From positions 1-50,361 of IMG/VR virus record IMGVR_UViG_3300021165_002265: a DNA stretch of 50,361 nt. The stretch is one strand, 5' to 3'. The notes under the pieces are model-generated. The model did not search any database and was not told the DNA's origin. It saw only the letters and a program-made list of their open reading frames with translations. The position numbers and the translations under genes were made by a program. Of this stretch, positions 11,938 through 32,784 are shown piece after piece (position 1 is the stretch's first letter; every line of letters starts with the position of its first letter). This DNA comes from a virus.

Positions 11938-13077
11938 TTAATGTGAATCCCCAACATTATTTTTTTCGCTATATATTAAGTAATCTGGGTTTATTACTTT
12001 AGCTACTTTTGCTCTGTTTCCATCGACAGCTTTTATAACAACACCTTCATGAGGAACTTTGGTGTTGTTTATAAAATTATTAAATACAAATTTATTTTTC
12101 ACCTCCTCTGAATAAAGCCCTTTATACAAGACTTCAACGTATGGCAATTTTAAATAATCGTTAACCACAAATTCAGCTGAGGTTAGATTAAAATACTTTT
12201 TGTTTAATTCAACATCAAAAATACAAAGCTGTATATCATCTAATCCGTACTCATAATTTTTTTGAATACCTTTACCGTAGATTTCTCCATAGATTATTAA
12301 TCCACTACCTATAGAAGTATCGTTACCTTTAATACTTATATTCTTTTTAACAAGATTCCAAAGCTTGTTTTTGATATCGTATTTTTTTTCAATATCATAC
12401 CAAACGTTAGTATCATAGAAACCCTGAGTGTCGGATCCTTTTTCTACGTTATGAGAACCTACTACAAATTCATACTCGCCCCAACCTAAATTAAAACCAA
12501 AGAACTTTTTAATTTTATCCCATAGAGATAATTTACTTTTCTTGACAATTCCATACCTTGCATTTGTTCCGTGTATTTTCCTTGTTATTTCTACATAATC
12601 ATATTCATCAAAAATATTAGGAACATTTTTAAAATTAGGAAATTTGTAATAAATATAAAAATTTGGATTTTCATAGTACTTCCTTTTTTTTCCACTAGAT
12701 AAAGTAATAAGTCTAGCTGGAGGTTCATACTTATATATTTTAAGTATGTCCATTAAATCCTCACCATATTTCCTTCTATTCTCAGGAATTAAATCAATTG
12801 GCATTAATAGGCATTCGCTATAAACGCCTCTTAATTTAATTGTTCTAACCCTTTCTTTACTCCGAAGATAATTAGTTACGCCTAATTTCTCTGAAATTTC
12901 TAAAGGTATTACAGCATCTGTTGTAGCACAGACAACTAAATCCCCAATTGAGTGAGAACCTTTTTTAACAATACAAAACCATCCATTTACAACAGCTAGT
13001 TCTATATTATCAGCATCCGGAATATCTTGAATACTATTTATTGCGGACACAAAACAAACACTATTTTCATTTTTCAT
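11938..13077 (-). CDS. Rnl5-type RNA ligase with N-terminal OB fold
   Basis: This enzyme should seal RNA ends with ATP through a covalent lysyl-AMP. The N-terminal 110 residues resemble the OB-fold of Deinococcus-type Rnl5 ligases (INSIQDIPDADNIELAVVNG, then SKERVRTIKLRGVYSECLL). The nucleotidyltransferase core follows with motif I RKIHGTNARYG near residue 167, motif IV IYGEIYGKG near residue 270 and motif V HEGVVIKA near residue 345. The 379-residue length suits Rnl5. It has a perfect host-type promoter. A polynucleotide kinase-like gene at 16822 and an HD phosphohydrolase at 20327 could supply end healing, so tRNA or RNA repair is the likely role. Confidence 0.85.
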   Translation of the reverse strand: MKNENSVCFVSAINSIQDIPDADNIELAVVNGWFCIVKKGSHSIGDLVVCATTDAVIPLEISEKLGVTNYLRSKERVRTIKLRGVYSECLLMPIDLIPENRRKYGEDLMDILKIYKYEPPARLITLSSGKKRKYYENPNFYIYYKFPNFKNVPNIFDEYDYVEITRKIHGTNARYGIVKKSKLSLWDKIKKFFGFNLGWGEYEFVVGSHNVEKGSDTQGFYDTNVWYDIEKKYDIKNKLWNLVKKNISIKGNDTSIGSGLIIYGEIYGKGIQKNYEYGLDDIQLCIFDVELNKKYFNLTSAEFVVNDYLKLPYVEVLYKGLYSEEVKNKFVFNNFINNTKVPHEGVVIKAVDGNRAKVAKVINPDYLIYSEKNNVGDSH

Positions 13078-13096
13078 AAACTATTATTTAATGACA

Positions 13097-13128
13097 CAAA
13101 GATAACTTAATTTTTTGTAATTTCCAAA
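13097..13128 (-). promoter_or_regulatory. host-type promoter of the RNA ligase
   Basis: On the minus strand TTTG, exactly 20 bases, then TATCTTTG. It overlaps the end of the upstream gene and its start point would be about 10-15 bases before the ligase start codon. Confidence 0.7.
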
Positions 13129-13409
13129 TTAATTAGAGATTTTTTTAATTCTCTTTCTTTTTTTCTCTTGTTTCTAGCGTACTCCACATATATTTCTCTT
13201 TTTTCCGCGTAGTATTCTTTTTGCCTATCAATTAATTTTTCTTTATTTTCTATATAATACAACTGTCTTCTTTTTTTCTCCTTTTGTCTAGCGTATTCAG
13301 ACATCGAATGGTAATTGGCTAACCTTTTTTTTCTATGCTCTTCTTTCTTTTCTTCAGATAAGTTAGCAAATCTATTTTTAAGATATTCTTTTTTGTCTTT
13401 TGTAACCAT
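13107..13409 (-). CDS. highly basic repeat protein
   Basis: This 100-residue protein is dominated by lysine, arginine, glutamate and tyrosine in a loosely repeated pattern (YYIENKEKLIDRQKEYYAEK), which suggests a long helix or coiled coil. Similar Y-x-E-N-K-E-K proteins occur in phages and near HNH endonucleases and probably bind nucleic acid. It ends inside the promoter region of the ligase and begins one base after the stop codon of the preceding gene. Confidence 0.55.
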   Translation of the reverse strand: MVTKDKKEYLKNRFANLSEEKKEEHRKKRLANYHSMSEYARQKEKKRRQLYYIENKEKLIDRQKEYYAEKREIYVEYARNKRKKERELKKSLINLEITKN

Positions 13410-13410
13410 A

Positions 13411-13968
13411 TTAATAAGCCTCTAAGTGAGGATCAATTAAGTTTTCTAATTTTGTTAATTCGTCAGCAACTTCTTTAGTAAAGGAGCCATAAACTCTTAT
13501 TGTACCGTATTTTACTTTTATGTCTCTTATAAACAATCCACCTGTGATATGCGTAAAAGCAGATGCTAAGTGTAAATCTCTACATCTAACTATTGAGTTA
13601 TCGTTAGCAAATAAATGTAGAAGATTCAGTACAAATGTAGGGCACCACCAAGGTTTAGCTTTCTTCGCAACAAATACAATAAAATCTTCTAGGTAATCAT
13701 ATAAATCAGTATCCTCATTAAAGATATTCCAGGAAATACCGAGGTAGTGATATTTATCTTCTCGCTTATTTGAAAAACATCTTAGAACATCTTCGAAAGA
13801 TACGGGAGGAAATTTATACCGTTGGCTCTTGCTTGACATTGGACCATACTTCTTTTCTAAACTGTATAATCCTATTCTATAAGATATGTATGATTTGATA
13901 TAGTAATACAGTATTATTGCGGGGATATAACCAATTACAACAATGAATAAAATAATTAAAATGTACAT
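13411..13968 (-). CDS. membrane-anchored hypothetical protein
   Basis: The N-terminus is a strong membrane anchor (MYILIILFIVVIGYIPAII) followed by a soluble domain of about 150 residues. There are four scattered cysteines (LRCF, WWCP, VRCRD) and a distinctive KAKPWWCPTFVLNLLHLF. No family is recognised. It is upstream of the basic repeat protein with a one-base gap, so they are likely co-expressed. Confidence 0.5.
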   Translation of the reverse strand: MYILIILFIVVIGYIPAIILYYYIKSYISYRIGLYSLEKKYGPMSSKSQRYKFPPVSFEDVLRCFSNKREDKYHYLGISWNIFNEDTDLYDYLEDFIVFVAKKAKPWWCPTFVLNLLHLFANDNSIVRCRDLHLASAFTHITGGLFIRDIKVKYGTIRVYGSFTKEVADELTKLENLIDPHLEAY

Positions 13969-13983
13969 AATAATAAATTTAAG

Positions 13984-14228
13984 TTAATCAAGATCATTGC
14001 ACCAGATAGGAGTCTGTTCTCCTACATAAGCACCACTAACATTATAATAAAAATGTTCTAAAGCATCTTCATCTGACATGTCTTCCATGAGAATATCAAG
14101 ACACTTAGACATAGAGAATATATAAGTCTCAAAGAATGTTCATCAAATCCAATTATAGCATCATCAAATCCATCAGCTTTCAAAAATGTCTCATCCGGGT
14201 AATTTTCTAGTATAGATTCTAATTTCAT
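13984..14228 (-). pseudogene. frameshifted gene of a common small phage protein family
   Basis: From the ATG at 14228 the frame reads MKLESILENYPDETF and later AIIGFDEHSLRLIYS, then shifts. In another frame the continuation KCLDILMEDMSDEDALEHF and GAYVGEQTPIWCNDLD runs to a stop at 13984. From memory the two halves belong to one familiar family of about 80 residues. The break lies near 14119-14125 (TATTCTCTATG), and one missing base would repair it. It may be a real pseudogene, a sequencing error, or a frameshift signal. Confidence 0.7.
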
Positions 14229-14229
14229 G

Positions 14230-14544
14230 TTATTTATTTTGCGGGGTTAATTTATCTAATAATTCTAATAAAACATCTCCATGACATGCCTGTGGCTTAC
14301 ACCAACATCCTAAAATCTTACCACCTTTTAATTCATGTAAATCATTCAGTAAATGTTTTCCATCTCCATTTGTAATCCATTCTCTATAAGCATTAACAGC
14401 AGCTTCTCTATCTTCCACTACGTGTTTAGCAAGTGTTGTACCATCCGGCCAATGAGTAAAAGGATTCCCCCATTTACTAGGCCTTCCAATATATACATTA
14501 TACTTCTCCTTCTTACAATGGACTACTCTTGATTTCACTATCAT
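14230..14544 (-). CDS. DUF4326 domain protein
   Basis: The core YIGRPSKWGNPF near residue 16 and the C-terminal CWCKPQACHGDVLLELLD are the signature of DUF4326, a small domain found in phages and bacteria with probable metal-binding Cys/His residues and unknown activity. The frame is open further upstream, but a start at 14544 (or 14547) fits the family best. It overlaps the upstream gene by 32 bases, pointing to coupled translation. Confidence 0.75.
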   Translation of the reverse strand: MIVKSRVVHCKKEKYNVYIGRPSKWGNPFTHWPDGTTLAKHVVEDREAAVNAYREWITNGDGKHLLNDLHELKGGKILGCWCKPQACHGDVLLELLDKLTPQNK

Positions 14545-14902
14545 CATTATTATTTTCAAGTCTACAATGCTCATTTACATAATCGTACAATGTATCAATA
14601 TTAAAACATATAGGAGTCTTATCAGAATCCCATGCAGCAGGTTCTCTGTCCGGATACATAATATCTTCATCTGCCTTAGCATCATAGGTTCTAACAAATT
14701 CAAAAAGATACCATGTTATCCAATCTAATCCTTCATCTTTATAATGAGATAGTATGCTTTGACTGAATATTGAATTAATCAAATCATCTATAGGAAAACG
14801 CTTATTCTCCAAAAAATTAAATCCGATATCATGTAAATTTGACATGTGCATACAAACATCATAATAGGACTTCAAGAGCATTTTAAAACTTTCTTTTTTC
14901 AT
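14513..14902 (-). CDS. hypothetical protein
   Basis: A 129-residue acidic, helical protein with aromatic clusters (DWITWYLFEFVRTYD). I do not recognise a family. It overlaps the upstream metallophosphatase by four bases (ATGA) and the downstream DUF4326 gene by 32, so all three sit on one transcript. Confidence 0.55.
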   Translation of the reverse strand: MKKESFKMLLKSYYDVCMHMSNLHDIGFNFLENKRFPIDDLINSIFSQSILSHYKDEGLDWITWYLFEFVRTYDAKADEDIMYPDREPAAWDSDKTPICFNIDTLYDYVNEHCRLENNNDDSEIKSSPL

Positions 14903-15636
14903 ATTTCATTTGTTAATTGTCCTACACTGACTTCATCATTTTCTATAATTAGATATTCCCGGCTCATTCCTAGGGTATCAATATAGTAGTACCGGCCTCC
15001 TGTAGTTTGTCCCTTAATATCAATTTTCTTTTGCTGAGTATGACCTACAACCTGGATAAATTCTTTTCTTAATGTATCGTAGTTGGATTCCTGCAAGGAC
15101 TTAGGCCGGATCCATATAGGAGAGGATTCAACACTATCTCCATAAGGATCCCACCCGGAGAATTTAAAAGCGCGGGGAGAAGCAATAAACAAATCATTAA
15201 CAAGAACATCAATATCTTCAAATCTAATTTTAGTCTTATTTTTACCCAGCCAATATTCTAACCATTTATAACTAACTCCCGCATGACTAAATAAATACTT
15301 ATCCATCTTATAACACATGGATAACTCATTTATATGTTCCATCAATAACGACTGAATAGTATGATGATGCCCTCTCTGATGCCCTGAATATGTTTCATTA
15401 GCAAAAGGCATGTAATGAAAGTCATGATTACCAATTAACATAATAACATCTGCTTTTGAATTACTCTTAAATTCAATCAAACGTTTAAAATTATGTAATT
15501 GAACTATAATTCTTATATCTTCATGTGTATCAAAGTAATCTCCTACAAATATAAATCTATCTGCATCATTTTCCTTTTCAACAATTTGTTCCCATGATAT
15601 TCTACCATGAATGTCTCCAATAATTACACTTTTCAT
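14899..15636 (-). CDS. calcineurin-like metallophosphatase
   Basis: Motifs of the two-metal phosphoesterase fold appear in order: GDIHGR at residues 8-13, FVGDYFD near residue 30, LIGNHDFHY near residue 65, FSHAG near residue 113 and VVGHTQ near residue 194. This is the pattern of serine/threonine protein phosphatase-like phage enzymes such as that of lambda. The 245-residue length is normal. It could act on proteins or on phosphate ends of nucleic acids. It starts one base before the stop codon of the 57-residue gene upstream and overlaps the next gene by four. Confidence 0.85.
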   Translation of the reverse strand: MKSVIIGDIHGRISWEQIVEKENDADRFIFVGDYFDTHEDIRIIVQLHNFKRLIEFKSNSKADVIMLIGNHDFHYMPFANETYSGHQRGHHHTIQSLLMEHINELSMCYKMDKYLFSHAGVSYKWLEYWLGKNKTKIRFEDIDVLVNDLFIASPRAFKFSGWDPYGDSVESSPIWIRPKSLQESNYDTLRKEFIQVVGHTQQKKIDIKGQTTGGRYYYIDTLGMSREYLIIENDEVSVGQLTNEI

Positions 15637-15637
15637 A

Positions 15638-15811
15638 TTATCTTTTTAAAACAAACCAATCATCGGTAAAAAATTTAACGATAGGCTTTGCTAGGTTACT
15701 AAAACATTTTTCATACATTTCATATCTGGATCTCCTAATATCCATTTTAATCTCATACAATCTACTAGGATCATCCACATCTTTAAAACTTTCATACATC
15801 TTCTCAAACAT
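15638..15811 (-). CDS. 57-residue hypothetical protein
   Basis: A short helical, charged protein (MFEKMYESFKDVDDPSRLYE at the start, ending DDWFVLKR). It is supported by its position: the stop codon lies one base before the start codon of the metallophosphatase. No function is apparent. The 158 bases upstream may be a structured leader. Confidence 0.55.
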   Translation of the reverse strand: MFEKMYESFKDVDDPSRLYEIKMDIRRSRYEMYEKCFSNLAKPIVKFFTDDWFVLKR

Positions 15812-15969
15812 CTTTTTTCATTTATAAGTTAAAATTTGCTCTTTATTCTACTACCCCTTTATATCAGAGCATGCCTGCTTATCTTACCTGCCGTTATATT
15901 CACAGCTTGGCTAATACGAGTTTCTCAAGGGTACAGGCTATCGAAAATATATATCCTCTTTTTATTTTA
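15812..15969 (-). other. non-coding leader with candidate RNA structure
   Basis: No convincing gene lies here. On the minus strand GCCTG and TACCCTT could pair with downstream CAGGC and AAGGGGTA in a crossed (pseudoknot-like) order, and further local stems are possible. It directly precedes the gene starting at 15811, so a cis-regulatory RNA is possible. It matches no riboswitch I know. Confidence 0.3.
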
Positions 15970-16185
15970 TTAGTATATTTTTTCTCCACATACTAAAGGA
16001 GTACCATCTGAGTTTAGAATCGGGATTGTACCATGTCTCATTTGCTTATAGATAAAACCATTTTCGCAAATTATACTATAGTCCCAACGCATGCCAACAT
16101 CATAAGGTTCTTTCTTAGATTCACAATACAATCCTAAAAAGGTAAGCCCACACGCTAATAAAATAAGAAGTAACATGCTTTTCAT
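15970..16185 (-). CDS. small membrane or exported protein
   Basis: The N-terminus MKSMLLLILLACGLTFLGLYC could be a signal peptide, a lipoprotein signal (a cysteine follows LGLY) or a membrane anchor. The remaining 45 residues contain IICENGFIYKQ and LVCGEKIY, a pattern seen in small phage proteins with two conserved cysteines. It overlaps the upstream gene by four bases (ATGA). Confidence 0.5.
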   Translation of the reverse strand: MKSMLLLILLACGLTFLGLYCESKKEPYDVGMRWDYSIICENGFIYKQMRHGTIPILNSDGTPLVCGEKIY

Positions 16186-16526
16186 TTCAAATATACTTTT
16201 AAGGTTAAATCTTTCTTTAGTCTTTCCATAAATGATTCCTCACCATCATCACCTGATACTAACCAATCAACTCTTTGAGCATATACATAAGCAATACTTA
16301 AGTACTTTACTGCTTCTTTAAACTCTTCTATAACTTCATCCGAATACTTATACCAAAACTTATCTTCCGGATACTTGATAAAATAATCATCATCAAGAGT
16401 CTCCCAAGCACCCTCCCTAATTTCTTCTTCTGTTTTAGCCCTCCCATTTTTTTCAATTAACTCTTCGATAGAATCAATTATGCCTTTAATTCGAGCTTGG
16501 TCATAATTAAAAAACCCTTCACTCAT
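16182..16526 (-). CDS. hypothetical acidic protein
   Basis: A 114-residue acidic, helical protein (RIKGIIDSIEELIEKNGRAK near the start; WLVSGDDGEESFMERLKKDL near the end). No family is recognised. It precedes the small exported protein with a four-base overlap. Confidence 0.5.
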   Translation of the reverse strand: MSEGFFNYDQARIKGIIDSIEELIEKNGRAKTEEEIREGAWETLDDDYFIKYPEDKFWYKYSDEVIEEFKEAVKYLSIAYVYAQRVDWLVSGDDGEESFMERLKKDLTLKVYLK

Positions 16527-16563
16527 GGTTATTGTTTTTAAAGTTTTACATTAAATCTTTCTC

Positions 16564-16764
16564 TCATCTTTTCCAAGTCATTAGGTCGCAATACTGTAAA
16601 GCTAATTCTAGTGCAATATTAGCGTTTTCTCTTGACCAATCATAGAAATCACCATAATTAAATTCTTCATTTGGGAATACCTTTGACCAAATGTATTCAT
16701 AAACATTTTGTCTAACTGGTACTTTCATAATCTTTATTAGTTCTTTTTCTAAATCATCTGTCAT
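16564..16764 (-). CDS. hypothetical protein
   Basis: A 66-residue soluble protein with many aromatic residues (NVYEYIWSKVFPNEEFNY). Nothing in it points to a function. It lies between the kinase-like gene and an acidic hypothetical gene in the same direction. Confidence 0.45.
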   Translation of the reverse strand: MTDDLEKELIKIMKVPVRQNVYEYIWSKVFPNEEFNYGDFYDWSRENANIALELALQYCDLMTWKR

Positions 16765-16821
16765 AAGGGATATAATTTAAAGAGTTTTAAAATTATTTTT
16801 AATACTATGTCTCATATTTTT

Positions 16822-17223
16822 TCACAATGAAATTTCAAATCTTTCTCTCATCTTTGTTATAGTCTCTTCCGGGCAATCATGAACATTTTTACCTCCATGT
16901 CTATTTTCCACAATTAATGAAAAGACCGTATAACCATGCTCTTTTGCCAAATCAAAGTAGGGTTTCATTTCCCATTCTTGTGTAAAGGTATTGGAAACAA
17001 CAATCCCGGGAACATCAAATCCTCTATCATTGGTTTCCATCCACTCTTTAACCTGATTCCTGCACCAAGAATGAGCCTCTTTCAATTTAGAAGCATCAAA
17101 CTTATATTCACCATCTTGCATAAAATACTGATCCGCTTCAATGTGAACACCACCCAATAATTTCGCTAGAGTGGATTTACCGGACCCTGGAAGGCCTCTT
17201 AATAATAAAAGTGTTTTACTCAT
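16822..17223 (-). CDS. polynucleotide kinase-like P-loop protein
   Basis: The 133-residue protein matches the NEDD4BP2/T4-Pnk-like kinase family: Walker A GLPGSGKSTLAK at residues 9-20, HIEADQYF with the likely catalytic aspartate, FDASKLKEAHSWCR, then SNTFTQEWEMKPYFDLAKEH and an arginine-rich lid near MRERF. Such enzymes phosphorylate 5'-OH ends of RNA or DNA. There is no phosphatase domain, unlike T4 Pnkp. With the RNA ligase at 11938 and the HD protein at 20327 it could form a split repair pathway. Confidence 0.75.
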   Translation of the reverse strand: MSKTLLLLRGLPGSGKSTLAKLLGGVHIEADQYFMQDGEYKFDASKLKEAHSWCRNQVKEWMETNDRGFDVPGIVVSNTFTQEWEMKPYFDLAKEHGYTVFSLIVENRHGGKNVHDCPEETITKMRERFEISL

Positions 17224-17224
17224 G

Positions 17225-17431
17225 TTAATTGTATTTAAAAGGGTTTTTCAAATTAACTTCTCTCCAAAACCCTACTACACCAAAACAAACAATCCCACTA
17301 ATAAAAACAATAACGAGAAGCAAATAAGATAAAGGATTATAGGGGTTTAACCTATGTCTTTCGAATCCATGCTTACCTACTATCTTCTCCGTTATCCATA
17401 AAGCTAATAGTAATTTTCTAAAGCTTATCAT
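17225..17431 (-). CDS. small membrane protein
   Basis: A 68-residue protein with a membrane segment near its C-terminus (YLLLVIVFISGIVCFGVVGF) after an N-terminal half with basic residues. It ends one base before the start of the kinase-like gene, so it is probably part of the same transcript. No family is recognised. Confidence 0.5.
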   Translation of the reverse strand: MISFRKLLLALWITEKIVGKHGFERHRLNPYNPLSYLLLVIVFISGIVCFGVVGFWREVNLKNPFKYN

Positions 17432-17433
17432 GT

Positions 17434-17853
17434 TTATTCGTTATTAAGTAATTTCAATAAAGACAATTCTTCAACAAAGGAGAAGGCTATTAATTCTCCT
17501 TCAATATCTGTGTATTGGAAATGCGGATGTCTTGCATCATCTGGCTGCCTAAACTCCCATATTTTCTTGTCCGTTTTTTCATCATAATAACCCATACTAA
17601 ATACCGTAGATTCGGTTCCATCTTCATAAGTTTTTTTTATCAATAACATTAACTCCGCACAATCCCAATTTAATCCCGGGTATTCACGTCCTGCATCTTC
17701 AACAGTCGTAGTTTTAGCATCATGCCAAATAATATCATGTTTATGCCCCTTATGTATGTTAGTAATAACTATTTTACCATTTTCATCATACTGTCCATCA
17801 CTAGAGTTGAAATTCCAAAGTTTTGTTTCTTGCTTAATTTTACTTTTTTTCAT
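17434..17853 (-). CDS. hypothetical protein
   Basis: A 139-residue, strand-rich soluble protein with histidine-rich patches (NIHKGHKHDIIWHDAK) and aromatic turns. I do not recognise it. It starts downstream of the tRNA-like region and ends two bases before the small membrane protein gene. Confidence 0.5.
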   Translation of the reverse strand: MKKSKIKQETKLWNFNSSDGQYDENGKIVITNIHKGHKHDIIWHDAKTTTVEDAGREYPGLNWDCAELMLLIKKTYEDGTESTVFSMGYYDEKTDKKIWEFRQPDDARHPHFQYTDIEGELIAFSFVEELSLLKLLNNE

Positions 17854-17913
17854 GTGTAAATGTTTTTGTTTTTAGTAAATAACATCTTCCTGACATCAAG
17901 AAGCTCATAAAAG

Positions 17914-18056
17914 TAATCAGGACAGGATTCGAACCTGCAAAGTTGAACTGTATTACATAAATGGACTCTTTAGAATGTGGAGGATAAACTCTCCGACTAT
18001 TTACACCACGTCAACCTTATCATGTTTTAAGCGTCTTCCAATTCCGCCACCTGACT
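17914..18056 (-). tRNA. aberrant tRNA-Leu-like locus (143 nt)
   Basis: Acceptor strands AGTCAGG and CCTGATT pair over seven positions (one G-U). The D arm GCGGAATTGGAAGACGC and the T arm GCAGG-TTCGAAT-CCTGT are intact, the latter with one G-U pair. Between D and T arms there are about 90 bases where a leucine tRNA needs about 35. The excess includes GGAG/CTCC and AAG-TTGA/TCAA-CTT pairings. No clean anticodon arm is visible, so decoding is doubtful. It may be a tRNA with an insert or a tRNA-like processing site. Confidence 0.55.
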
Positions 18057-18119
18057 GTACTTAGATTTTTAAAACCCACCTTTTACAAGGCAAGGAAACT
18101 CCATCTTATGTTTTTTGCG

Positions 18120-18215
18120 TGGCTAGGAAAGGATTCGAACCAATACGAATGAAGCGTAACCTATTTATCATTCTACCTTTGTAACGATAGCGTCTACCAA
18201 TTTCGCCACCTAGCT
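18120..18215 (-). tRNA. tRNA-Leu-like locus with enlarged anticodon loop (96 nt)
   Basis: The D arm GCGAAATTGGTAGACGC and the acceptor strands (AGCTAGG with CCTAGCC, A-C at the first pair) are kept, and GGTTCGAATCC is present, though the T stem has mismatches. The anticodon stem pairs TATCGTT with AATGATA, leaving a ten-base loop; with a standard five-pair stem the loop has 14 bases rather than seven. Removing seven bases can give TTTAGAA, a Leu(UAG) loop. Confidence 0.5.
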
Positions 18216-18226
18216 ATTTTATTTCT

Positions 18227-18550
18227 TTAAACCAAACGTAAAGCACGAAACCAATTTAGTATTAGATTCTTTTCTCCGTTAGGATATGTCCATTTACCTG
18301 TAATCATAAATAATAGAGGTAAAGAAATAAACATTAATATAAATAGAATTAACGCAAAAGGTAAAGTAAATCTTACCCATCCTTTAATTTCTGTTCTTTC
18401 CTCTGAGTAAAAATTAATTCCAAGGGATCTCCACCTCTCGCACATTTCCTCGTATGACACTTTTTTTAACTCAGGAAAAGTTTCACTGAATTTTGGTATG
18501 TAGGTCCAATTATTATGAGACCACACTCTTTTTAGTTTTTGAAATACCAT
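18227..18550 (-). CDS. membrane protein embedded in the tRNA-like cluster
   Basis: The 107-residue product has a soluble N-terminal half (KLKRVWSHNNWTYIPKF) and a hydrophobic segment of about 25 residues (FALILFILMFISLPLLFMI) followed by a short basic tail. It lies between two tRNA-like loci, so its messenger may be released by tRNA processing enzymes. No family is recognised. Confidence 0.5.
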   Translation of the reverse strand: MVFQKLKRVWSHNNWTYIPKFSETFPELKKVSYEEMCERWRSLGINFYSEERTEIKGWVRFTLPFALILFILMFISLPLLFMITGKWTYPNGEKNLILNWFRALRLV

Positions 18551-18570
18551 TTTTTATACAATTTTGTTAG

Positions 18571-18784
18571 TAGCAAGGACAGGATTCGAACCTGTACTTA
18601 CAATAAAGCCAATTAGCCATTCCATGACAATAAAGGAATTGAACCTTTACATTGTAACCCATTATGAGTAAATCGGATTTACACCGAAGCGTCTACCAAG
18701 TTTAAACATTGACCCCGTAGTGGATTCTAACCACATTATTTTCACTACTGGAACGGGGTTGTTTAAACATTCCGCCACCTTGCC
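18571..18784 (-). tRNA. composite tRNA-like locus (214 nt) with a D-loop insertion
   Basis: Outer acceptor strands GGCAAGG and CCTTGCT pair fully (one G-U). The 3' T arm ACAGG-TTCGAAT-CCTGT is perfect. The D arm is split after GCGGAA by a 61-base repeat unit and resumes as TTGGTAGACGC. An anticodon-like arm CGG-TGTAAAT-CCG follows (UAA, but G at the usual U33). A second perfect T arm AAAGG-TTCAATT-CCTTT lies inside. It looks like two fused tRNA modules plus an insert; function is uncertain. Confidence 0.5.
18700..18771 (-). repeat. hairpin insert flanked by 11-bp direct repeats in a tRNA D loop
   Basis: GTTTAAACATT occurs at 18700-18710 and 18761-18771. Between them ACCCCGT/ACGGGGT and GTAGTG/CACTAC pair into a long hairpin. 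Direct repeats flanking a hairpin look like the trace of a small insertion, inside what would otherwise be a normal D loop. Confidence 0.55.
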
Positions 18785-18860
18785 AAAATGAGTGTTTTTG
18801 TAATATCCCTAGAACACACAAACTATGCTGACCTACGATTCAGAGAGCGTCCACGCCAAT

Positions 18861-18879
18861 ATTCGACTTGTAATCGAAT
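18861..18879 (+). other. isolated anticodon-arm-like hairpin
   Basis: ATTCGA-CTTGTAA-TCGAAT has the exact form of a tRNA-Thr(UGU) anticodon arm on the plus strand. The surrounding 100 bases do not form a convincing acceptor or T arm, so this is at most a tRNA remnant. Confidence 0.25.
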
Positions 18880-18930
18880 CTGTAATCTCTATCTTCGATC
18901 CATACCCAGGCCTAGGTAGAGGGCTTTTTG

Positions 18931-19085
18931 TAGTCAGGACAGGATTCGAACCTGCAATACTGCCGCACTTCTGCGCTGATACCTTTTTTGTTTAACGTAA
19001 GGTTCGGCAAACCTCATTACAGTTTTTTAGTGTCTCCCATCAGGAATCGGCTTGATCAGTGCCGCCCTTGTTCCACCACCTGACT
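18931..19085 (-). tRNA. tRNA-like locus with D-loop insertion (155 nt)
   Basis: Acceptor strands AGTCAGG and CCTGACT are perfectly complementary with A at the discriminator position; the T arm GCAGG-TTCGAAT-CCTGT has one G-U pair. The D arm starts GTGGAA and resumes GGGAGACAC about 30 bases later, with a GGAA/TTCC plus GGC/GCC hairpin inserted. A CGCA/TGCG stem could be a long variable arm. The anticodon region is expanded and unclear. A host-type promoter starts it. Confidence 0.5.
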
Positions 19086-19095
19086 AATTATAATG

Positions 19096-19127
19096 CAAAT
19101 ATAAGTATCTTTCTTTAAAAAACCAAC
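19096..19127 (-). promoter_or_regulatory. host-type promoter of the tRNA-like cluster
   Basis: On the minus strand GTTG, 20 bases, TATATTTGC. The tRNA-like locus begins 11 bases beyond the -7 box, so it should start the transcript. Confidence 0.65.
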
Positions 19128-19143
19128 ACTTATTTTGTTAATA

Positions 19144-19767
19144 TTATGTTAATTTATTTCTTAGCACTTGAATAACATCCCACGCATCCAATAAAGCATT
19201 ATGAGAAACATTTCCATCAATATTAGCTCTCTTCTTACATACATCCAAAGAAGGCAGAACATCATCATTATTCACATCAAAATATAAAATTGCGGGGTCT
19301 AATATCCTTTTACGAACATCAATAAACCCAACCCATCCAGGAATATTATTTAAGAATAACATGTCAAATGCAGCAAAATTCTTTCCAGCTACATTTATCT
19401 TATATCTCTGAAATCTAGGATCAGCTTTAATTCCATTAGCATGTAGAAAAGATGTAAAAGATTCAGTTAATGTAAAAGTTTCAACAAAGATAGGATTATA
19501 ATTACCTACCTCATTATTTAACACATCATACGCATCATTTCTTTCATTTTCTACATAATCTGAAATATCCTTAATAACATCCATATTCATCAATAATGCT
19601 TTAGGAGATCCTTTAATGCTTCTATGAATGACAGTAGCATAGAACTTAGGACAATCTTCAAATGATAAAGATTTACTTGTATCTTCAATGATTGCTCCAA
19701 ATGATAGGATTTGATTTTTATTAGGATTCAAACCACTTGTTTCAATATCAATACTAACATACAACAT
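19144..19767 (-). CDS. DnaQ-like 3'-5' exonuclease
   Basis: The protein begins with the ExoI motif DIETSGLNP (catalytic D and E at about residues 7 and 9) and ends with HNALLDAWDVIQVL, the ExoIII-type H-x4-D of DEDDh nucleases. A middle aspartate (FAAFDMLFLNN near residue 135) fits ExoII. Length (207) is that of a stand-alone RNase T/oligoribonuclease-like or DnaQ exonuclease, so RNA or DNA ends may be trimmed. It lies directly upstream of the tRNA-like promoter, which makes a link with tRNA maturation possible but unproven. Confidence 0.8.
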   Translation of the reverse strand: MLYVSIDIETSGLNPNKNQILSFGAIIEDTSKSLSFEDCPKFYATVIHRSIKGSPKALLMNMDVIKDISDYVENERNDAYDVLNNEVGNYNPIFVETFTLTESFTSFLHANGIKADPRFQRYKINVAGKNFAAFDMLFLNNIPGWVGFIDVRKRILDPAILYFDVNNDDVLPSLDVCKKRANIDGNVSHNALLDAWDVIQVLRNKLT

Positions 19768-19777
19768 GATATAAGAT

Positions 19778-20056
19778 TTAATTAGTTACATATTCTGGAA
19801 GTGTACAAATATGAGGAGCAACACTTGTAGGGGCCAACAATACATTATAATACTTACATGCTTGCCCAAATCCATTACCTCGAAAGTCAATAAAAATATA
19901 CTTATCATTAAATGAAGTGATAGTACCATATTCATAAGGAACATTAATATTATCCCATACTTCTTTATACATGACTTTTCTTCCAACGAGACTACCATCC
20001 ATAGACTCCGGAAATACTCTTTTAGGCGTTAGCCCCTGGTAATCAAAACTGCTCAT
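19778..20056 (-). CDS. hypothetical protein
   Basis: A 92-residue strand-rich protein (LVGRKVMYKEVWDNINVPYE; GTITSFNDKYIFIDFRG), which suggests a small beta-barrel. The start at 20056 overlaps the membrane protein gene by four bases (ATGA) and is preferred over the longer open frame. Function unknown. Confidence 0.5.
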   Translation of the reverse strand: MSSFDYQGLTPKRVFPESMDGSLVGRKVMYKEVWDNINVPYEYGTITSFNDKYIFIDFRGNGFGQACKYYNVLLAPTSVAPHICTLPEYVTN

Positions 20057-20247
20057 AATCTTTCTTTTGCTTTTCTTATAAGTACTAGTAAAAAAACTGC
20101 GAATACTAGAATTAATGGACCAAGCCAAATGGGAGATAGTACCCACCACCAAGACCAATCTATAAAATTAGTAAGTTTTAGGGCAATGAAAAGGATAGTT
20201 AGTAGCCCCACAAAACTAACACCTGAACTCGAAGACTCTTTTGACAT
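20053..20247 (-). CDS. small membrane protein
   Basis: 64 residues with two hydrophobic segments (GVSFVGLLTILFIALKL and WWVLSPIWLGPLILVFAVFL) and a basic C-terminus. A host-type promoter lies just upstream (20280-20310), so it heads the operon that includes the exonuclease gene. Confidence 0.5.
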   Translation of the reverse strand: MSKESSSSGVSFVGLLTILFIALKLTNFIDWSWWWVLSPIWLGPLILVFAVFLLVLIRKAKERL

Positions 20248-20279
20248 GATTGATAATTTAAGAGTGAAATAATTATGCG

Positions 20280-20310
20280 CAAATATACGAATAAAAATGA
20301 TAAAAACAAA
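20280..20310 (-). promoter_or_regulatory. host-type promoter
   Basis: On the minus strand TTTG, 19 bases, TATATTTGC, upstream of the small membrane protein at 20053. Confidence 0.65.
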
Positions 20311-20326
20311 TTATTCTACAACTTTT

Positions 20327-20830
20327 TTAAACAATTCCACCTTTATCAATCGTAGAGAAGAATATTAAATCATTGAATGACCTGTGGTTTTCAATAGCTA
20401 CTCGCTTAGATAATCTCATAGATTCTAACACTGGATTAGGGTACTTTACCAACATGTGATTCTTTACTATGAAATGTATAGCTTCAATATCGGTTCCCTC
20501 GAAAGACAGGATCCAATCTTTGTACTCCAAAACATACTCTGCTGACTTATGTTCATGTCCATACGCAGTTGGCTGACCTGTTTTTTCGTTTATACCATAA
20601 GTATCCATTTTACCCAAGTCATGAAATAGAGCTGCCATTATTATATTAGGATTATTTGGATACTTTTTATAAGCTCTTCGCAATACTACTATAATGTGCT
20701 TTAACGTATTTCCCTCCGGATGCCATACTATGTTTTGTTTAGCTTCCCATTGCCTGAATAACAATTCTTTCAATGTTCTAGGCGCTATAGAAATTAAATG
20801 CTTATAAGATGTTAGCAATACTTTAGACAT
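20327..20830 (-). CDS. HD-domain phosphohydrolase
   Basis: The metal-binding HD signature is clear: WHPEGNTLKHI near residue 36, AALFHDLGKMDT near residue 66, GHEHKSAEYV near residue 92, and a later HFIVKNH. This arrangement is shared with tRNA nucleotidyltransferases and with the HD half of bacterial HD-Pnk RNA repair enzymes, which remove 3'-phosphate or 2',3'-cyclic phosphate. With a separate kinase and an RNA ligase nearby, an end-healing role is attractive but not proven; a nucleotide phosphohydrolase is the main alternative. Confidence 0.75.
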   Translation of the reverse strand: MSKVLLTSYKHLISIAPRTLKELLFRQWEAKQNIVWHPEGNTLKHIIVVLRRAYKKYPNNPNIIMAALFHDLGKMDTYGINEKTGQPTAYGHEHKSAEYVLEYKDWILSFEGTDIEAIHFIVKNHMLVKYPNPVLESMRLSKRVAIENHRSFNDLIFFSTIDKGGIV

Positions 20831-20840
20831 AATTTTAATA

Positions 20841-21521
20841 TTAATCTTTTACTTTTTCCCAATATTTTGTAACAATAACTTTTTCTTTAAGAACTACTCT
20901 ATGTAATGTATCAATATCTTGTTTATCAAAACCATAATCATCACTATAAACATATTCATTAGTTTCCCAAAAACCGTATAGTTCTTTATCAACATCTGGA
21001 TAATATTCTTCATTGATTTCCACAATAGATTGTTTAAAGAAAGTAGAACCTCTTCTATGATTACTATTAGAATCATCATAAAAATCATCTAATAATTCAT
21101 CAAAATCTAATCCATATTCTTTAGCAGTTTTTTCATCAAGTTTGTTTATCATTTTGTTTGTTTTTTCTTGTTCAAAATAAAATACTATTTCGCGGGGAGT
21201 CTCTTTTAATAAATTATACTTTTTAGCCATTCTGAAATTAGATGAATATGCATTTAAAGTCCTAAGTTGATAGCTAATTTCATCACGAAAATGTTCAAGA
21301 GTATGTGCTGATTTCCATTTATTACATACTTTACAACTAGGCATAAGATTATTCATGTCATTTAAATCATTGTCAGTATATATTTTATTTGATCCTATAC
21401 TGAAATGAAATCTGCTAACTAAATGATCAACTTGCATATCATTAAATTCTAAATCACATCCACAATAAGCACAATGTCCATCATATTTTTCATGTACAAG
21501 TTGTCTATTTATTTTTTTCAT
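20841..21521 (-). CDS. HNH endonuclease
   Basis: A classic HNH zinc module: CAYCGCDLEF at residues 15-24, DHLVSRFHF, then NLMPSCKVCNKWKSAHTLEHF with the second CxxC pair and catalytic His and Asn residues. The C-terminal 130 residues are acidic and unknown. It may be a free-standing homing endonuclease or a DNA-processing nuclease. The start at 21521 overlaps the coiled-coil gene by 17 bases; the longer open frame is unlikely. Confidence 0.8.
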   Translation of the reverse strand: MKKINRQLVHEKYDGHCAYCGCDLEFNDMQVDHLVSRFHFSIGSNKIYTDNDLNDMNNLMPSCKVCNKWKSAHTLEHFRDEISYQLRTLNAYSSNFRMAKKYNLLKETPREIVFYFEQEKTNKMINKLDEKTAKEYGLDFDELLDDFYDDSNSNHRRGSTFFKQSIVEINEEYYPDVDKELYGFWETNEYVYSDDYGFDKQDIDTLHRVVLKEKVIVTKYWEKVKD

Positions 21522-21711
21522 ATAGTTCACTTTCAAGTTCATGAATTCTACCTTTAAGTCCTTCAATGATTTCTGCATAAACTTCAATAGTATCTTCTAA
21601 CTTTTCATGAGCTTCTTCTAGTTCATGAATTTCTACAATTAAATTTTCGATTACATAGTTAATGTCATCTTTAGCATCAATAGCTTGTCTTTCTAAAAGT
21701 GTGTTATACAT
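21505..21711 (-). CDS. small coiled-coil protein
   Basis: 68 acidic residues with heptad-like spacing (VIENLIVEIHELEEAHEKLE), a strong coiled-coil candidate. It overlaps the HNH gene and may be an accessory or oligomerisation factor, but no family is recognised. Confidence 0.5.
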   Translation of the reverse strand: MYNTLLERQAIDAKDDINYVIENLIVEIHELEEAHEKLEDTIEVYAEIIEGLKGRIHELESELYEKNK

Positions 21712-21782
21712 TGTTATTGTTTACTTTTTAATAGTTTAACGTATTACGGCGATAATTGCAGTTATCCGGAGATAGCATACAT

Positions 21783-21929
21783 TTACCATCTAATATAGAT
21801 TGTTACAAGACCTAGAGCAATCGCAAATACCATTTTTTTATTTTGATGGTATTCTGTTTGCTGACAACTAATTCCCAAATCAAACCACCAACTCCCTCCT
21901 ATATTATTCCAAACAATTTCTACTTTCAT
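21783..21929 (-). CDS. 48-residue hypothetical protein
   Basis: MKVEIVWNNIGGSWWFDLGI, then a basic segment and a hydrophobic C-terminus (MVFAIALGLVTIYIRW). The aromatic GGSWWFD box looks conserved-type. It starts one base before the stop codon of the upstream gene, supporting a real gene. Confidence 0.5.
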   Translation of the reverse strand: MKVEIVWNNIGGSWWFDLGISCQQTEYHQNKKMVFAIALGLVTIYIRW

Positions 21930-21930
21930 T

Positions 21931-22203
21931 TTATTTAATATTTTTAAATGAATAAGCACTTAAAATAGTTTCCGTATCAATACCACCATTAGTACCTTCT
22001 TGTAACGATTCATAATATTCTTTATCCATGTCTACATTTTCAGAGGCTTCTTTCAAAGCTGCTTCAACATGCATTGCAGCAAATTCCTTAGCAAATTCAC
22101 ATATAACTCCTTTATAGAAAAAAAATATATCATCATCATCGATAAAATCTCTCAATCCATCAATATTATTAGGTAATAAGTCTTCTGCTGTTGGTATATT
22201 CAT
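21931..22203 (-). CDS. hypothetical protein
   Basis: A 90-residue acidic helical protein (FAKEFAAMHVEAALKEASEN). The start at 22203 is used because the longer open frame runs back into the tRNA-like locus. Function unknown. Confidence 0.5.
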   Translation of the reverse strand: MNIPTAEDLLPNNIDGLRDFIDDDDIFFFYKGVICEFAKEFAAMHVEAALKEASENVDMDKEYYESLQEGTNGGIDTETILSAYSFKNIK

Positions 22204-22228
22204 TTTATTTATTTTAGTGGTAAAAAAA

Positions 22229-22306
22229 CAGTCAGGGCCGGACTCGAACCGGATAAGCGACCATTTTACTTGACTTGGAACCATTCCTCATTACGCCCAC
22301 CTGACT
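22229..22306 (-). tRNA. atypical tRNA-like locus (78 nt)
   Basis: Acceptor strands AGTCAGG and CCTGACT are perfect and the T arm CCGG-TTCGAGT-CCGG is intact. The rest is of near-normal length but does not form a standard anticodon arm: GGAA-TGG-TTCC sits where the D/anticodon region should be and CCA/TGG flanks a 12-base loop. It is related to the tRNA-like loci at 17.9-19.1 kb by its ends. It lies between two genes of one strand. Confidence 0.45.
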
Positions 22307-22321
22307 ATTTTTTACTGAGTT

Positions 22322-22711
22322 TTAGTCAGCTACATTCTTTTTTGCATTCGCTAAGGGATCAAATCTTGTCTGGATGCCTACAAAGTATTTGCCCGCAGGA
22401 ACTACGGTATGCCTGTGATCTTTCTTTGCCGTTATCATAGCTTTATCCAATGTAACCCCCAAACCTTTTAGTTCTGACTGTAAAGAATGATTTAGTATGC
22501 ACTCTTCATGAGCATCGATAACAAATCCTCCATCTTCAAATTCGTAAATGTCGTAGTTACCAAATAAAGCATGAAAACTACCAGACCTTTCAGATGCAGC
22601 TATAAATCTTTTCTCTATCTTTTTAATACCCTTAGGTAAATCCGACAGTGTGAAGAATTGAACATCGCCTTGATGAAAGCCTTCGTTCTTAAATTTTAAT
22701 TTGCTTTTCAT
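22322..22711 (-). CDS. hypothetical protein
   Basis: 129 residues, mainly strands. GDVQFFTLSDLPKGIKKIEK is followed by HALFGNYDIYEFEDG and HRHTVVPAGKYFVGIQTRFD. I have no family for it. It is adjacent to the tRNA-like locus, which lies 15 bases past its end. Confidence 0.5.
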   Translation of the reverse strand: MKSKLKFKNEGFHQGDVQFFTLSDLPKGIKKIEKRFIAASERSGSFHALFGNYDIYEFEDGGFVIDAHEECILNHSLQSELKGLGVTLDKAMITAKKDHRHTVVPAGKYFVGIQTRFDPLANAKKNVAD

Positions 22712-22730
22712 AATAATAATAGTTTTAAAT

Positions 22731-23687
22731 TTAGTTTGCAGATTGCCAAGTATAATCTATGTCACCTGGTACATTATCAGGTCTATGCCATTTAGCACAT
22801 TTTACAGCATCTTTAAATGTAGGACAAGTGTCAATTAAATATACTGATTTTGTGCTAGGACAAGTAAACTCAATCCATGCGTAAGGTTGATCCAACTCAC
22901 CTTTGCTATTTTGTAAGAATGAGTATGTTTTATTTGTTTTATACAATCTGATTATTTCCTCATACCCGTTCTTATGTACCACGGTTTGCTCATCTACAAT
23001 AGATGCATCTAACATTTCCAGGACACCCTCATTTCCGTAATTTTCTTTAATTATGGTAATGATAGCAGCTTTAATATCTTCGTTATCTTGATTATGAAAA
23101 GCAATCTTAGCATTAATTAACGAGCTACATTCTTCAAATAACTCTTTTTCCAAGAATCTACCATTAACATAGTGCTGCCCATACCCATCAGCAAATTCAA
23201 TGGCAAATCCTGTAGTACAATGTAAGTCGTTATTTTCGTTTCTAGCTATTTTTTTAGGATACTTAGATACGAGGCAAACTTTGTCCATTTGTATTTGAAG
23301 ATATGAGTTTTCCACACACTCTAGGACTAAGTTAAAGTCATCTTTGTATTCATCAAGAATATCAAAATTATCCATAAAAAAACTGTAGAAAGATAGCCAT
23401 GATATGTCATCAACATTAATATAAGATGAAAACGGTTCATATACTAGGTTATCTTTATTCCCCATCAATTCATTTACTTTCACTTGACATTGCATAGGAC
23501 TGTCTAGCAAAAGTACTTCCGGCTCGGCCAATCCGCAAAACTTGTATAGTTTTTTCATTGAGACCTCGGTTCTGTCTTTATCATGGTTATTGTAAAACTC
23601 ATAATTAAAAACTTTACTCAACCACTTTTCTCTGTGGGAATCCAACTTTGCCTCTTGCTCCGGGGTCAAACTTTCTATTTTCTTCAT
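22731..23687 (-). CDS. hypothetical protein (318 aa)
   Basis: One of the larger unknown proteins here. It starts with a charged helix (LTPEQEAKLDSHREKWLSKV), has two regions rich in aromatic residues, and ends with a compact segment (AWIEFTCPSTKSVYLIDTCP; CAKWHRPDNVPGDIDY). No nucleotide-binding or catalytic motif is evident. It has its own leader with a TATATTTGC -7 box at about 23725-23733, so it probably leads an operon with the gene at 22322. Confidence 0.6.
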   Translation of the reverse strand: MKKIESLTPEQEAKLDSHREKWLSKVFNYEFYNNHDKDRTEVSMKKLYKFCGLAEPEVLLLDSPMQCQVKVNELMGNKDNLVYEPFSSYINVDDISWLSFYSFFMDNFDILDEYKDDFNLVLECVENSYLQIQMDKVCLVSKYPKKIARNENNDLHCTTGFAIEFADGYGQHYVNGRFLEKELFEECSSLINAKIAFHNQDNEDIKAAIITIIKENYGNEGVLEMLDASIVDEQTVVHKNGYEEIIRLYKTNKTYSFLQNSKGELDQPYAWIEFTCPSTKSVYLIDTCPTFKDAVKCAKWHRPDNVPGDIDYTWQSAN

Positions 23688-23725
23688 TATACAACATTTT
23701 AAAAGGTAATAAACTAATTATGATG

Positions 23726-23733
23726 CAAATATA
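23726..23733 (-). promoter_or_regulatory. host-type -7 box
   Basis: TATATTTG (then C) upstream of the 318-residue gene; the -33 position reads TTAG, a weak match. Nothing else is seen in 23688-23820 except the GC-rich word at 23805. Confidence 0.45.
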
Positions 23734-23820
23734 ATAACATTCTTGGACTTTTCCTAATTCTATATGTCAAATACATGTTAATATTTTGTTAATGTTTAGT
23801 ATTTCGCGGGGAATACATAT

Positions 23821-24030
23821 TTAATAATCTAAAATTGATTTTTTTACTTCCTCACATACTTGATGCCATACTTTAAATCTTATTTGATCCATTATTTGCA
23901 TACTCACTAGATTGTTAACTTTTTTTATTACTTGACTTGATATTTCATCTTTTTCATGATTCCTCATTTCATATCCAGTATGATTCCAGATTTTGTCCTG
24001 TACTAAATTATTTACATTATCCATAATCAC
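23821..24030 (-). CDS. QV-repeat array protein 20
   Basis: Last member of the array in the direction of transcription. Four-residue spacing of V/I is visible (NLVQDKIWNHTGYEMR; QIMDQIRFKVWHQVCEEV). The start is a GTG overlapping the previous stop (GTGA); an ATG lies six bases later. It ends KKSILDY, not the usual KL. No terminator was found behind it. Confidence 0.6.
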   Translation of the reverse strand: MIMDNVNNLVQDKIWNHTGYEMRNHEKDEISSQVIKKVNNLVSMQIMDQIRFKVWHQVCEEVKKSILDY

Positions 24031-24233
24031 ATATTTAAATTTACTTCATTAACTAATTTAATCCATGCTTGAACTCTTACTCCATTAAATATTTGTCCTC
24101 CTAATAAATCTTCAACATTATTACCTACTTTATCAGTTATTTCCTGATCCACTTGATTAGATAGATGATTCCATAACATAACTCTTACTTTATAATTTAC
24201 ATGATTTACTACTTTACTTCTTATATTCTTCAT
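24027..24233 (-). CDS. QV-repeat array protein 19
   Basis: 68 residues with spaced V, I, W and Q/N (MKNIRSKVVNHVNYKVRVML; DQEITDKVGNNVEDLL). Start codon overlaps the preceding stop in ATGA. A longer open frame upstream overlaps the preceding gene by 34 bases. Confidence 0.65.
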   Translation of the reverse strand: MKNIRSKVVNHVNYKVRVMLWNHLSNQVDQEITDKVGNNVEDLLGGQIFNGVRVQAWIKLVNEVNLNM

Positions 24234-24439
24234 ATTTCTAAAATTTGTCTTACACGTTCCCATTCTTGATCTAATACTTTAGCTTCTAATTCATCCCCTA
24301 CTCCATTTCCAATTCGATCCCATATTTGCTTATCCCCCTTGTTCCATATTTTTTTTCTTAATTTAGTTACTACTTGTTCACTTAGTTTATTAATCAAAAG
24401 CGTCCTTACTTGATACATCTTTTCGTTGATTCGATTCAT
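24230..24439 (-). CDS. QV-repeat array protein 18
   Basis: 69 residues; the repeat is degenerate but still spaced by four (KIWNKGDKQIWDRIGNGVGD). ATGA overlaps at both ends. It ends QILEI, so the usual C-terminal KL is lost. Confidence 0.65.
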   Translation of the reverse strand: MNRINEKMYQVRTLLINKLSEQVVTKLRKKIWNKGDKQIWDRIGNGVGDELEAKVLDQEWERVRQILEI

Positions 24440-24711
24440 AACTTGATATTTTGTTTTACCGGCTGCCATACTATATAACGTGCTCTATTTTTTACTTGAT
24501 TCCGGACTTCATTATGAACTTGCCTAGATGTTAATAGCCATAATTCATTAAGCAGTTGAGTACCTCCCTGCTGCCATATTTTAGCTTTAATTTTATCCTT
24601 TACATTTTTCATTTTTTGTCTTTTCTCGATTATAAAAGAAGTTAAGGTTTCCGGAGATTCTTTACTTAGAGCATCATCCAATTTTCTTTCTAAATCCTTT
24701 AAGTTAATCAT
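24436..24711 (-). CDS. QV-repeat array protein 17 with an added N-terminal domain
   Basis: 91 residues. The first 33 (MINLKDLERKLDDALSKESP onward) do not belong to the array and look like a small charged helical phage domain; array sequence begins at MKNVKDKIKAKIW and runs to PVKQNIKL. The stop overlaps the next start (ATGA) and its own start overlaps the stop of the gene at 24708. It may tether repeats to another partner. Confidence 0.65.
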   Translation of the reverse strand: MINLKDLERKLDDALSKESPETLTSFIIEKRQKMKNVKDKIKAKIWQQGGTQLLNELWLLTSRQVHNEVRNQVKNRARYIVWQPVKQNIKL

Positions 24712-32769: not shown

Positions 32770-32784
32770 GTTATTTTTATTTTG

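Follow-up and report, generated by a model that had tools for sequence, protein, structure and literature searches.

Several described RNAs come close to the genes reported here. In the engineered tRNA scaffold for RNA production, a foreign RNA replaces the anticodon arm, and in tmRNA, G3-U70 is the alanine identity pair. Type III antitoxins are described as pseudoknots, and a ToxI-like RNA that phage TE made or acquired allowed it to escape ToxIN (PMC5086642). An AbiF toxin is neutralized by an RNA with conserved motifs (RCd22; PMC12373285).

We analyzed a viral contig fragment from IMG/VR (50,361 bases, 33% GC), called the window here and taken over its whole length. ARAGORN at default settings finds a single tRNA in it, a tRNA-Met at 32784-32858, and in an Rfam 15 scan of the window tRNA-Met alone is over the cut-off. 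The window also holds TLS-2, a tRNA-like gene that belongs with many others in a large family of phage RNAs and is not one broken tRNA gene.

Anatomy of TLS-2 and its D-loop insert

An earlier note on this DNA had reported a tRNA-like gene with an interrupted D loop at 18571-18784, and acceptor, D arm, and T arm are indeed present there on the minus strand. The 7-bp acceptor (GGCAAGG/CCTTGCT) has one G-U, and the D arm, of the tRNA-Leu type (TGGCGGAA ... TTGGTAGACGC), is split by a 70-nt insert. A 216-nt stretch containing the gene has a folding energy of -59.6 kcal/mol, versus -49.6 ± 4.1 for shuffles (z = -2.4). Its parts are as follows.

18571..18784, minus strand: TLS-2, a 214-nt tRNA-like gene with an insert-bearing D arm and a replaced middle
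18579..18595, minus strand: T arm of TLS-2, ACAGGTTCGAATCCTGT, with a 5-bp T stem
18596..18688, minus strand: central core of TLS-2, 93 nt; an unrelated core stands at this place in L004/L005
18650-18657 with 18598-18605, minus strand: possible helix in the core; 27/200 shuffles are as good
18631-18649, minus strand: inner T-arm-like hairpin in the core, TAAAGG-TTCAATT-CCTTTA
18673-18687, minus strand: anticodon-arm-like hairpin in the core
18700..18769, minus strand: D-loop insert module, 70 nt; in the D loop in 9/9 other contigs; inner helix 7/7 in seven inserts
18761-18768 and 18700-18707, minus strand: arms of the outer helix of the insert
18753-18759 with 18712-18718, minus strand: inner helix of the insert
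18720-18734, minus strand: T-loop-like hairpin of the insert, GTGG-TTAGAAT-CCAC

The second T arm that the note had placed further on exists (18631-18649). The note's reading of the locus as a fusion of two tRNA modules is not supported, the middle of TLS-2 being an exchanged core that, as in most of the family, lacks a proper anticodon arm: the hairpin at 18673-18687 has 4 bp, the loop TGTAAAT, and G at position 33, and so differs from the 5-bp/7-nt anticodon arm with U33 of a functional tRNA.

The note had also described a repeat duplicated around a hairpin inside the D loop. Exactly two copies of AATGTTTAAAC occur in the window, at 18761-18771 and 18700-18710, both within the D loop of TLS-2, and they flank a hairpin that is closed by CCCCGT/ACGGGG and bears the T-arm-like GTGG-TTAGAAT-CCAC. 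Because matches with one mismatch are at the shuffle level (4 in the window versus 3.9), the motif by itself is unremarkable and its position is what stands out.

A scan with the insert core, AATAATGTGGTTAGAATCCAC, matched nine further contigs, so the other copies of the hairpin that the note had suggested looking for do exist. All nine have the insert in a D loop, with TGGCGRAA on one side and TTGGTAGACGC on the other. Different gene cores follow it in the window, L004 (=L005), L006, L085, L187, L191, L192, and L193; L194, a duplicate, was omitted from this comparison. For seven distinct insert sequences, we compared pairing of the flanks with their agreement as direct repeats:

GTTTAAAC/GTTTAAAC: helix 8/8, direct repeat 8/8
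GTTTAAAC/GTTTGAAC: helix 8/8, direct repeat 7/8
GTTAAC/GTTAAC: helix 6/6, direct repeat 6/6
ATTAAC/GTTAAT: helix 6/6, direct repeat 4/6
GTTAC/GTAAC: helix 5/5, direct repeat 4/5
GTTATC/GTTAAC: helix 5/6, direct repeat 5/6
GATAAC/GTTAAC: helix 5/6, direct repeat 5/6

Three of the seven (L006, L187, and L191) discriminate, all in favor of a helix; two are palindromes, two are ties, and none favors direct repeats. The inner helix is paired 7/7 in all seven, with two-sided changes from A-T to T-A (L187) and from C-G to T-A (L191). These paired arms and the inner-helix comparison favor reading the insert as a stalked structural module, the "repeats" presumably being the stalk itself. The small insertion element proposed in the note therefore survives only in part. 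The insert is separable and recurs in the D loops of nine contigs; its supposed target-site repeats are helix arms in the three discriminating inserts, and copies at varied sites, which a mobile element might show, were not seen, the D loop being the site in 9/9 other contigs.

Most D loops are free of inserts: among 191 rows with the D-arm motif, the 19-nt form accounts for 134 and the 18-nt form for 29. An empty site, which the note had suggested looking for in relatives, is found in L006: its equivalent slot at ∼7130, beneath an intergenic RNA conserved between L006 and the window, contains a plain D loop, and the insert of L006 belongs to a different gene, at 8110. Among 50,697 phage records, the insert has no match at an E value of 0.1 and window region 13000-25000 has no near match.

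A phage RNA family and its cores

Four more genes of the TLS-2 build, unnoticed in the earlier note, lie in the window, together with other features of interest.

18931..19085, minus strand: TLS-1, tRNA-like gene; its D-loop insert is of a different kind
18959-19028, minus strand: core of TLS-1, a recurring RNA motif (model R1) with 23 aligned members
18119..18215, minus strand: TLS-3, tRNA-like, with a 45-nt core; Rfam tRNA score 26.7 bits, below the cut-off of 29
17914..18056, minus strand: TLS-4, tRNA-like, with a 92-nt core; related to one in L085
38066..38172, minus strand: TLS-5, with a core able to form an H-type pseudoknot; 0/200 shuffles are as stable
18786..18928, minus strand: conserved, apparently structured noncoding stretch between TLS-1 and TLS-2 (three-sequence alignment of the window, L004, and L006)
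11938-13077, minus strand: RNA ligase gene (PF09414)
16822-17223, minus strand: AAA_33 kinase-like gene

Comparison of L006 with the window shows a hairpin within 18786-18928 to have changed on either side of its stem, in a way that looks compensatory. The RNA ligase and AAA_33 genes, a possible RNA repair pair, are a few kilobases from the tRNA-like genes.

At least 120 IMG/VR stretches carry the family pattern AGTCAGGTGGCGRAATNGGTAGACGC; with its N fixed as T, the pattern occurs in just 3 stretches in the contigs of 84,980 bacterial and archaeal species. Among the loci collected, 310 loose matches, 266 of them distinct, were reduced by filters on acceptor, D arm, and length to 153 rows; four of these are over-long readings that share their start with a shorter row, and TLS-3 lies outside the set. 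The AGTCAGG acceptor of 144/153 rows reflects the search pattern. The base after the 3' strand of the acceptor is A in 130/153 rows, as in tRNA-Leu, and CCA comes next in 7. A full anticodon stem with U33 in place is found in 3 of the 153 rows (1.2 expected from shuffles) and a near-anticodon arm in 8 (10.1 expected). Two of those three rows, L112 and L147, are homologues with a convincing arm, and these few rows may be real tRNAs. The family keeps acceptor, D, and T arms, and its anticodon arm is at chance level.

The middles are roughly 20 to 120 nt long and fall into 121 clusters, 100 of them single; three two-member clusters are merely an over-long reading plus its shorter form. ARAGORN labels 25/153 rows, 7 of them as undetermined, and the family may explain some phage tRNA genes so called. 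A leader hairpin with the loop GGAAAGA is present in seven of the 153 rows, two of which are one gene (1.0 expected), and is therefore not a general feature.

Genes of this kind are also found in named phages. Twenty-two named records were chosen from BLAST hits with these genes and put to a test in which the D arm had to be of the Leu type, the T stem 6 bp long, and the acceptor paired at 6/7 or better; 20 pass, all with a 7/7 acceptor and the loop TGCAAAT. The Bacillus phages among them are SPP1, Grass, BSP10, SBSphiJ, J1, J3, J4, J5, 010DV004, 278BB001, Goe3, Goe17, BSP14, and BvP; the others are Leuconostoc Ln-9, Weissella PWc, a Latilactobacillus phage, Enterococcus EG-TP1 and VEsP-1, and Lactiplantibacillus Gut-P1. 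phi3T and Pd_22F fail the test, and phi3T has such a gene by eye; a match in S-TIP37, judged by eye, falls outside this family. Among the named records, the acceptor 5' strand takes seven different forms. In SPP1, the gene sits between genes 9 and 11.

The feature tables examined for the named records list no RNA at these positions. The SBSphiJ record is entirely unannotated, and the Goe3 and BSP14 records place a small hypothetical protein gene over the tRNA-like gene. The word "tRNA" is absent from the main text of the 2018 SPP1 re-annotation (PMC6316719). Searches confined to the open-access literature revealed no description of such genes. SPP1 is a textbook phage, and even its record lacks an annotation for this conspicuous RNA family.

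Several further observations concern these named records. SPP1, Grass, and SBSphiJ3 have in common the leader GGGTTCGGGGWTAGCCCGGACGA directly before the tRNA-like gene (at loci L253, L255, and L256, of which L256 is that of SBSphiJ3). The acceptor/T branch of the named Bacillota phages has 13 bp (7+6) and the loop TGCAAAT, and that of the window type 12 bp (7+5) and TTCGANT. In SBSphiJ3, larger apparent RNAs that end in a T-arm-like hairpin flank the tRNA-like gene (L256, 221-447 and 746-982), the first of them containing a sub-threshold abiF-like match at 325-360; similar flanking RNAs are apparent in Grass and BSP10. Tenacibaculum phage pT24 has an annotated tRNA-Sup, two tRNA-Undet, and a tRNA-Pro, with T-arm-like stretches between them (L251, 660-1770), and this cluster may consist of relatives of the family.

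Comparison of related contigs reveals how the cores change. At the neighboring exonuclease, L004/L005 are 92% identical to the window in protein sequence. At TLS-2, they match it in the 5' flank (96%), in acceptor, D arm, and insert (95/95), and in T arm and acceptor (32/32), with the middle at 32% identity to L004 (shuffled mean 30%, maximum 36%); over the 60 bases beyond the gene, identity to L004 is just 45%. The TLS-4 middle is likewise replaced (34% versus 32% shuffled) between flanks of 75-76% and arms of 94-96% identity. Middles are kept in TLS-1 (96%) and TLS-3 (98%), the latter behind a 5' flank of 44%.

Cores also recur elsewhere, in scaffolds with different acceptors. The TLS-1 core is found in L019 between flanks that in the window hold TLS-5, the TLS-3 core occurs in L004, L006, L195, and L196, and a gene of L006 combines the D-loop part of TLS-1 with the core of TLS-3. 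Copies of the TLS-1 core in L202, L205, L213, L215, and L218 have a scaffold T loop one base longer (GGTATCGAATCC or GGTATCAAGTCC). L200 holds the TLS-1 core outside the tRNA scaffold, in a long plain hairpin with a T-run and without tRNA arms, which makes the core a unit of its own; the neighboring open reading frames, read by eye, look like phage replication genes, and no toxin was recognized among them. No bacterial source of the TLS-1 core was found in 395 Bacteroidota genomes, a weak negative given strict filters and a guessed host phylum.

The same slot of two sister Herelleviridae, Grass and SBSphiJ3, holds cores that are 44% identical (shuffled control, 45%) between a 5' flank of 94%, T arm and acceptor of 100%, and a 3' flank of 85% identity. 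The Grass core is 79% identical to that of SPP1, and the SBSphiJ3 core is 74% identical to that of phi3T, with flanks there at 43-51%, for which the SPP1 versus phi3T flank level, 47-48%, is the reference. Core sharing spans three phage types of one host (Bacillus), and different phages of the same host evidently share and, by these alignments, swap cores. In a plasmid search, the SPP1-type core had no match; the phi3T-type core had two, in Bacillus velezensis and B. pumilus, both apparently phage plasmids judging by their neighbors.

For the phi3T-type core, aligned in seven sequences of which two come from these phage-like plasmids, helices P1, P2, and P4 are paired in 99.1% of 112 cells, compared with 38-43% when slid. 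Four pairs, all in P2 and P4, have double changes, a number reached by 14/500 shuffles, and the covariation score is reached by 0/500; the crossing helix P1 is invariant and therefore draws no support from covariation. The TLS-1 core was aligned in 23 sequences; its two hairpins are paired in 207/207 cells, and three of nine pairs have double changes (reached by 1/500 shuffles; slid versions give up to 2). Covariation thus supports helices in two core types.

We also looked for helices in the order P1-P2-P1'-P2' whose P2' lies close to the T arm, against 20 dinucleotide shuffles per core, in a set of 142 cores from which those with an inner T-arm motif, TLS-2 included, were omitted. The order beats all 20 shuffles in 30 cores (6.8 expected) and, when each cluster contributes a single core, in 23 of 117 (5.6 expected); taken singly, roughly four clusters in five are unremarkable. 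There are 52 cases in which no more than one shuffle does as well, and in 30 of them P2' stops two bases short of the T arm. Against 200 shuffles, the number as good is 0 for TLS-5, 31 for TLS-1, 23 for TLS-3, and 21 for TLS-4; in TLS-2, run separately, it is 76, which is not significant, and no pseudoknot is claimed for this core. The pseudoknot order exceeds chance family-wide, and in the window it is clear for TLS-5 alone.

Possible function and competing readings

The anatomy, the missing anticodon arm, the core exchange, and the covariation in two core types are supported directly. The explanation that we think best, and to which we give an even chance, is that these are tRNA-shaped, mostly nondecoding phage RNAs that would be trimmed out and whose swappable core would bind a host protein. 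The transcription, processing, protein binding, and counter-defense that we infer would proceed as follows. Acceptor stem, D arm, and T arm would form a tRNA elbow and acceptor branch, and an exchangeable folded core would stand where a tRNA has its anticodon arm and variable region. For some of the family, this core would be pseudoknotted, its last helix ending about two nucleotides before the T arm. Some members, such as TLS-2, carry a second module in the D loop. The gene would sit in a longer phage transcript, from which host RNase P and tRNA 3'-end enzymes would trim out a stable RNA, since its ends are tRNA-like. The family suggests that the tRNA body is retained for processing and stability while the decoding part is replaced. 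Conservation of the folds points to a core that would then bind a host protein, perhaps an abortive-infection toxin normally held by a pseudoknotted RNA antitoxin. The hypervariability of the cores, and their sharing between different phages of one host, make a component of host defense the probable target. If cores bind host proteins, the slot difference between SBSphiJ3 and SBSphiJ5 is a natural experiment on RNA in phage-host conflict.

No toxin or defense family was found in a Pfam comparison of seven window proteins, nor was a toxin recognized among the neighbors read at a few loci. Antisense action on the phage's own genes was considered and rejected: the best complementary stretches that the five cores have elsewhere in the window span 11-13 nt, versus shuffled means of 11-12. 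A bolder proposal is that phages of several genera share a modular RNA counter-defense platform, a tRNA chassis that host tRNA enzymes would excise, with plug-in folded cores that would each block a particular immune protein, in the manner of RNA antitoxins, and be exchanged like cassettes. We regard this as less likely than not.

The RNAs might instead be decoys. Their elbow and acceptor branch would attract host factors directed at tRNAs, whether to attack or to modify them, such as enzymes working on the acceptor end; the lack of an anticodon arm would give immunity to anticodon nucleases, and the core would serve only as a stabilizer. The conserved parts are exactly the acceptor, D, and T arms, with A after the acceptor in 130/153 rows, and the window phage has genes for an RNA ligase and for a kinase-like AAA_33 protein. 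Decoys would leave unexplained the helix-preserving changes in the cores, their recurrence across different acceptors, and the L200 copy outside the scaffold, and we consider this account rather unlikely.

Conserved arms that flank exchanged cores, and one D-loop module that accompanies several cores, could also be the mark of selfish cassettes, cores or genes spread by recombination between the D and T arms with no benefit to the phage. Neither coding sequence nor a hallmark of transposition was seen, the repeats are helix arms, and structure is kept inside the cores, all of which makes purely selfish spread doubtful.

Unusual decoding tRNAs, or tRNAs with a removable intron in the anticodon region, would account for the Leu-like D arm, the discriminator A, the ARAGORN label on 25/153 rows, and the convincing anticodon arm of the homologous pair L112/L147. 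Leucyl-tRNA synthetase, moreover, does not need the anticodon. Against decoding stands an anticodon arm at chance level. An intron finds no conserved exon halves in the slot comparisons, the stretch from D arm to T arm being at shuffled identity in TLS-2, in TLS-4, and between Grass and SBSphiJ3, and we judge both versions very improbable. Decaying tRNA pseudogenes collecting junk, for which one could cite the great sequence diversity and the lack of RNA annotation at these genes in the named feature tables examined, can hardly be the answer, given acceptors of 7/7 in 20/22 named records (the test asked for 6/7), the same core in different phages, and the covariation and two-sided helix changes that contradict decay.

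Comparison with known RNA families

In an Rfam 15 scan of 13 named-phage loci, solely ordinary tRNAs were over the cut-off. With tRNA-Leu and other type II tRNAs, the family shares the acceptor, the D arm (GGCGGAATTGGTAGACGC), the T arm, and mostly A73 (130/153 rows). It differs from tRNA-Leu in an anticodon arm at chance level, in an exchanged middle that seems pseudoknotted in part of the family, and, in some members, in extra D-loop modules.

These genes resemble tmRNA (RF00023) in enclosing a long insert, apparently pseudoknotted in part, between ends of the tRNA type. No RF00023 match is over the cut-off in the window or the 13 named-phage loci; the best, beside the SPP1 gene, scores 13.8 bits versus 47. 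Unlike the G3-U70 of tmRNA, the third pair is T-A in AGTCAGG/CCTGACT and C-G in GGCAAGG/CCTTGCT.

Type III antitoxin RNAs (ToxI and CptI) and phage pseudo-ToxI are small pseudoknots, diverse in sequence; the cores are similarly diverse, and part of them may be small pseudoknots too. Whereas type III antitoxins are tandem repeats, the family consists of single copies in a tRNA scaffold, with no toxin seen beside the few loci inspected. ToxI itself (RF02519) was rejected, with 0/50 records over the cut-off and weak, chance-like matches in 34/50. The abiF antitoxin RNA (RF03085) gave sub-threshold matches in 5/50 records, the best at 27.8, 25.2, and 21.6 bits (cut-off, 37), the latter two from sister phages. 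The best match, with 15 identical consecutive letters and no tRNA scaffold around it, is a lead only; it lies on the minus strand at L264 1019-1054 (G036 37718-37753), on a contig that also has a family gene (L102). Such weak abiF-like RNAs fit a counter-defense reading and do not prove it.

With the engineered tRNA scaffold, the family shares the replaced anticodon arm, and it can be regarded as the natural counterpart of that design, differing from it in being natural, phage-borne, and evolving by exchange.
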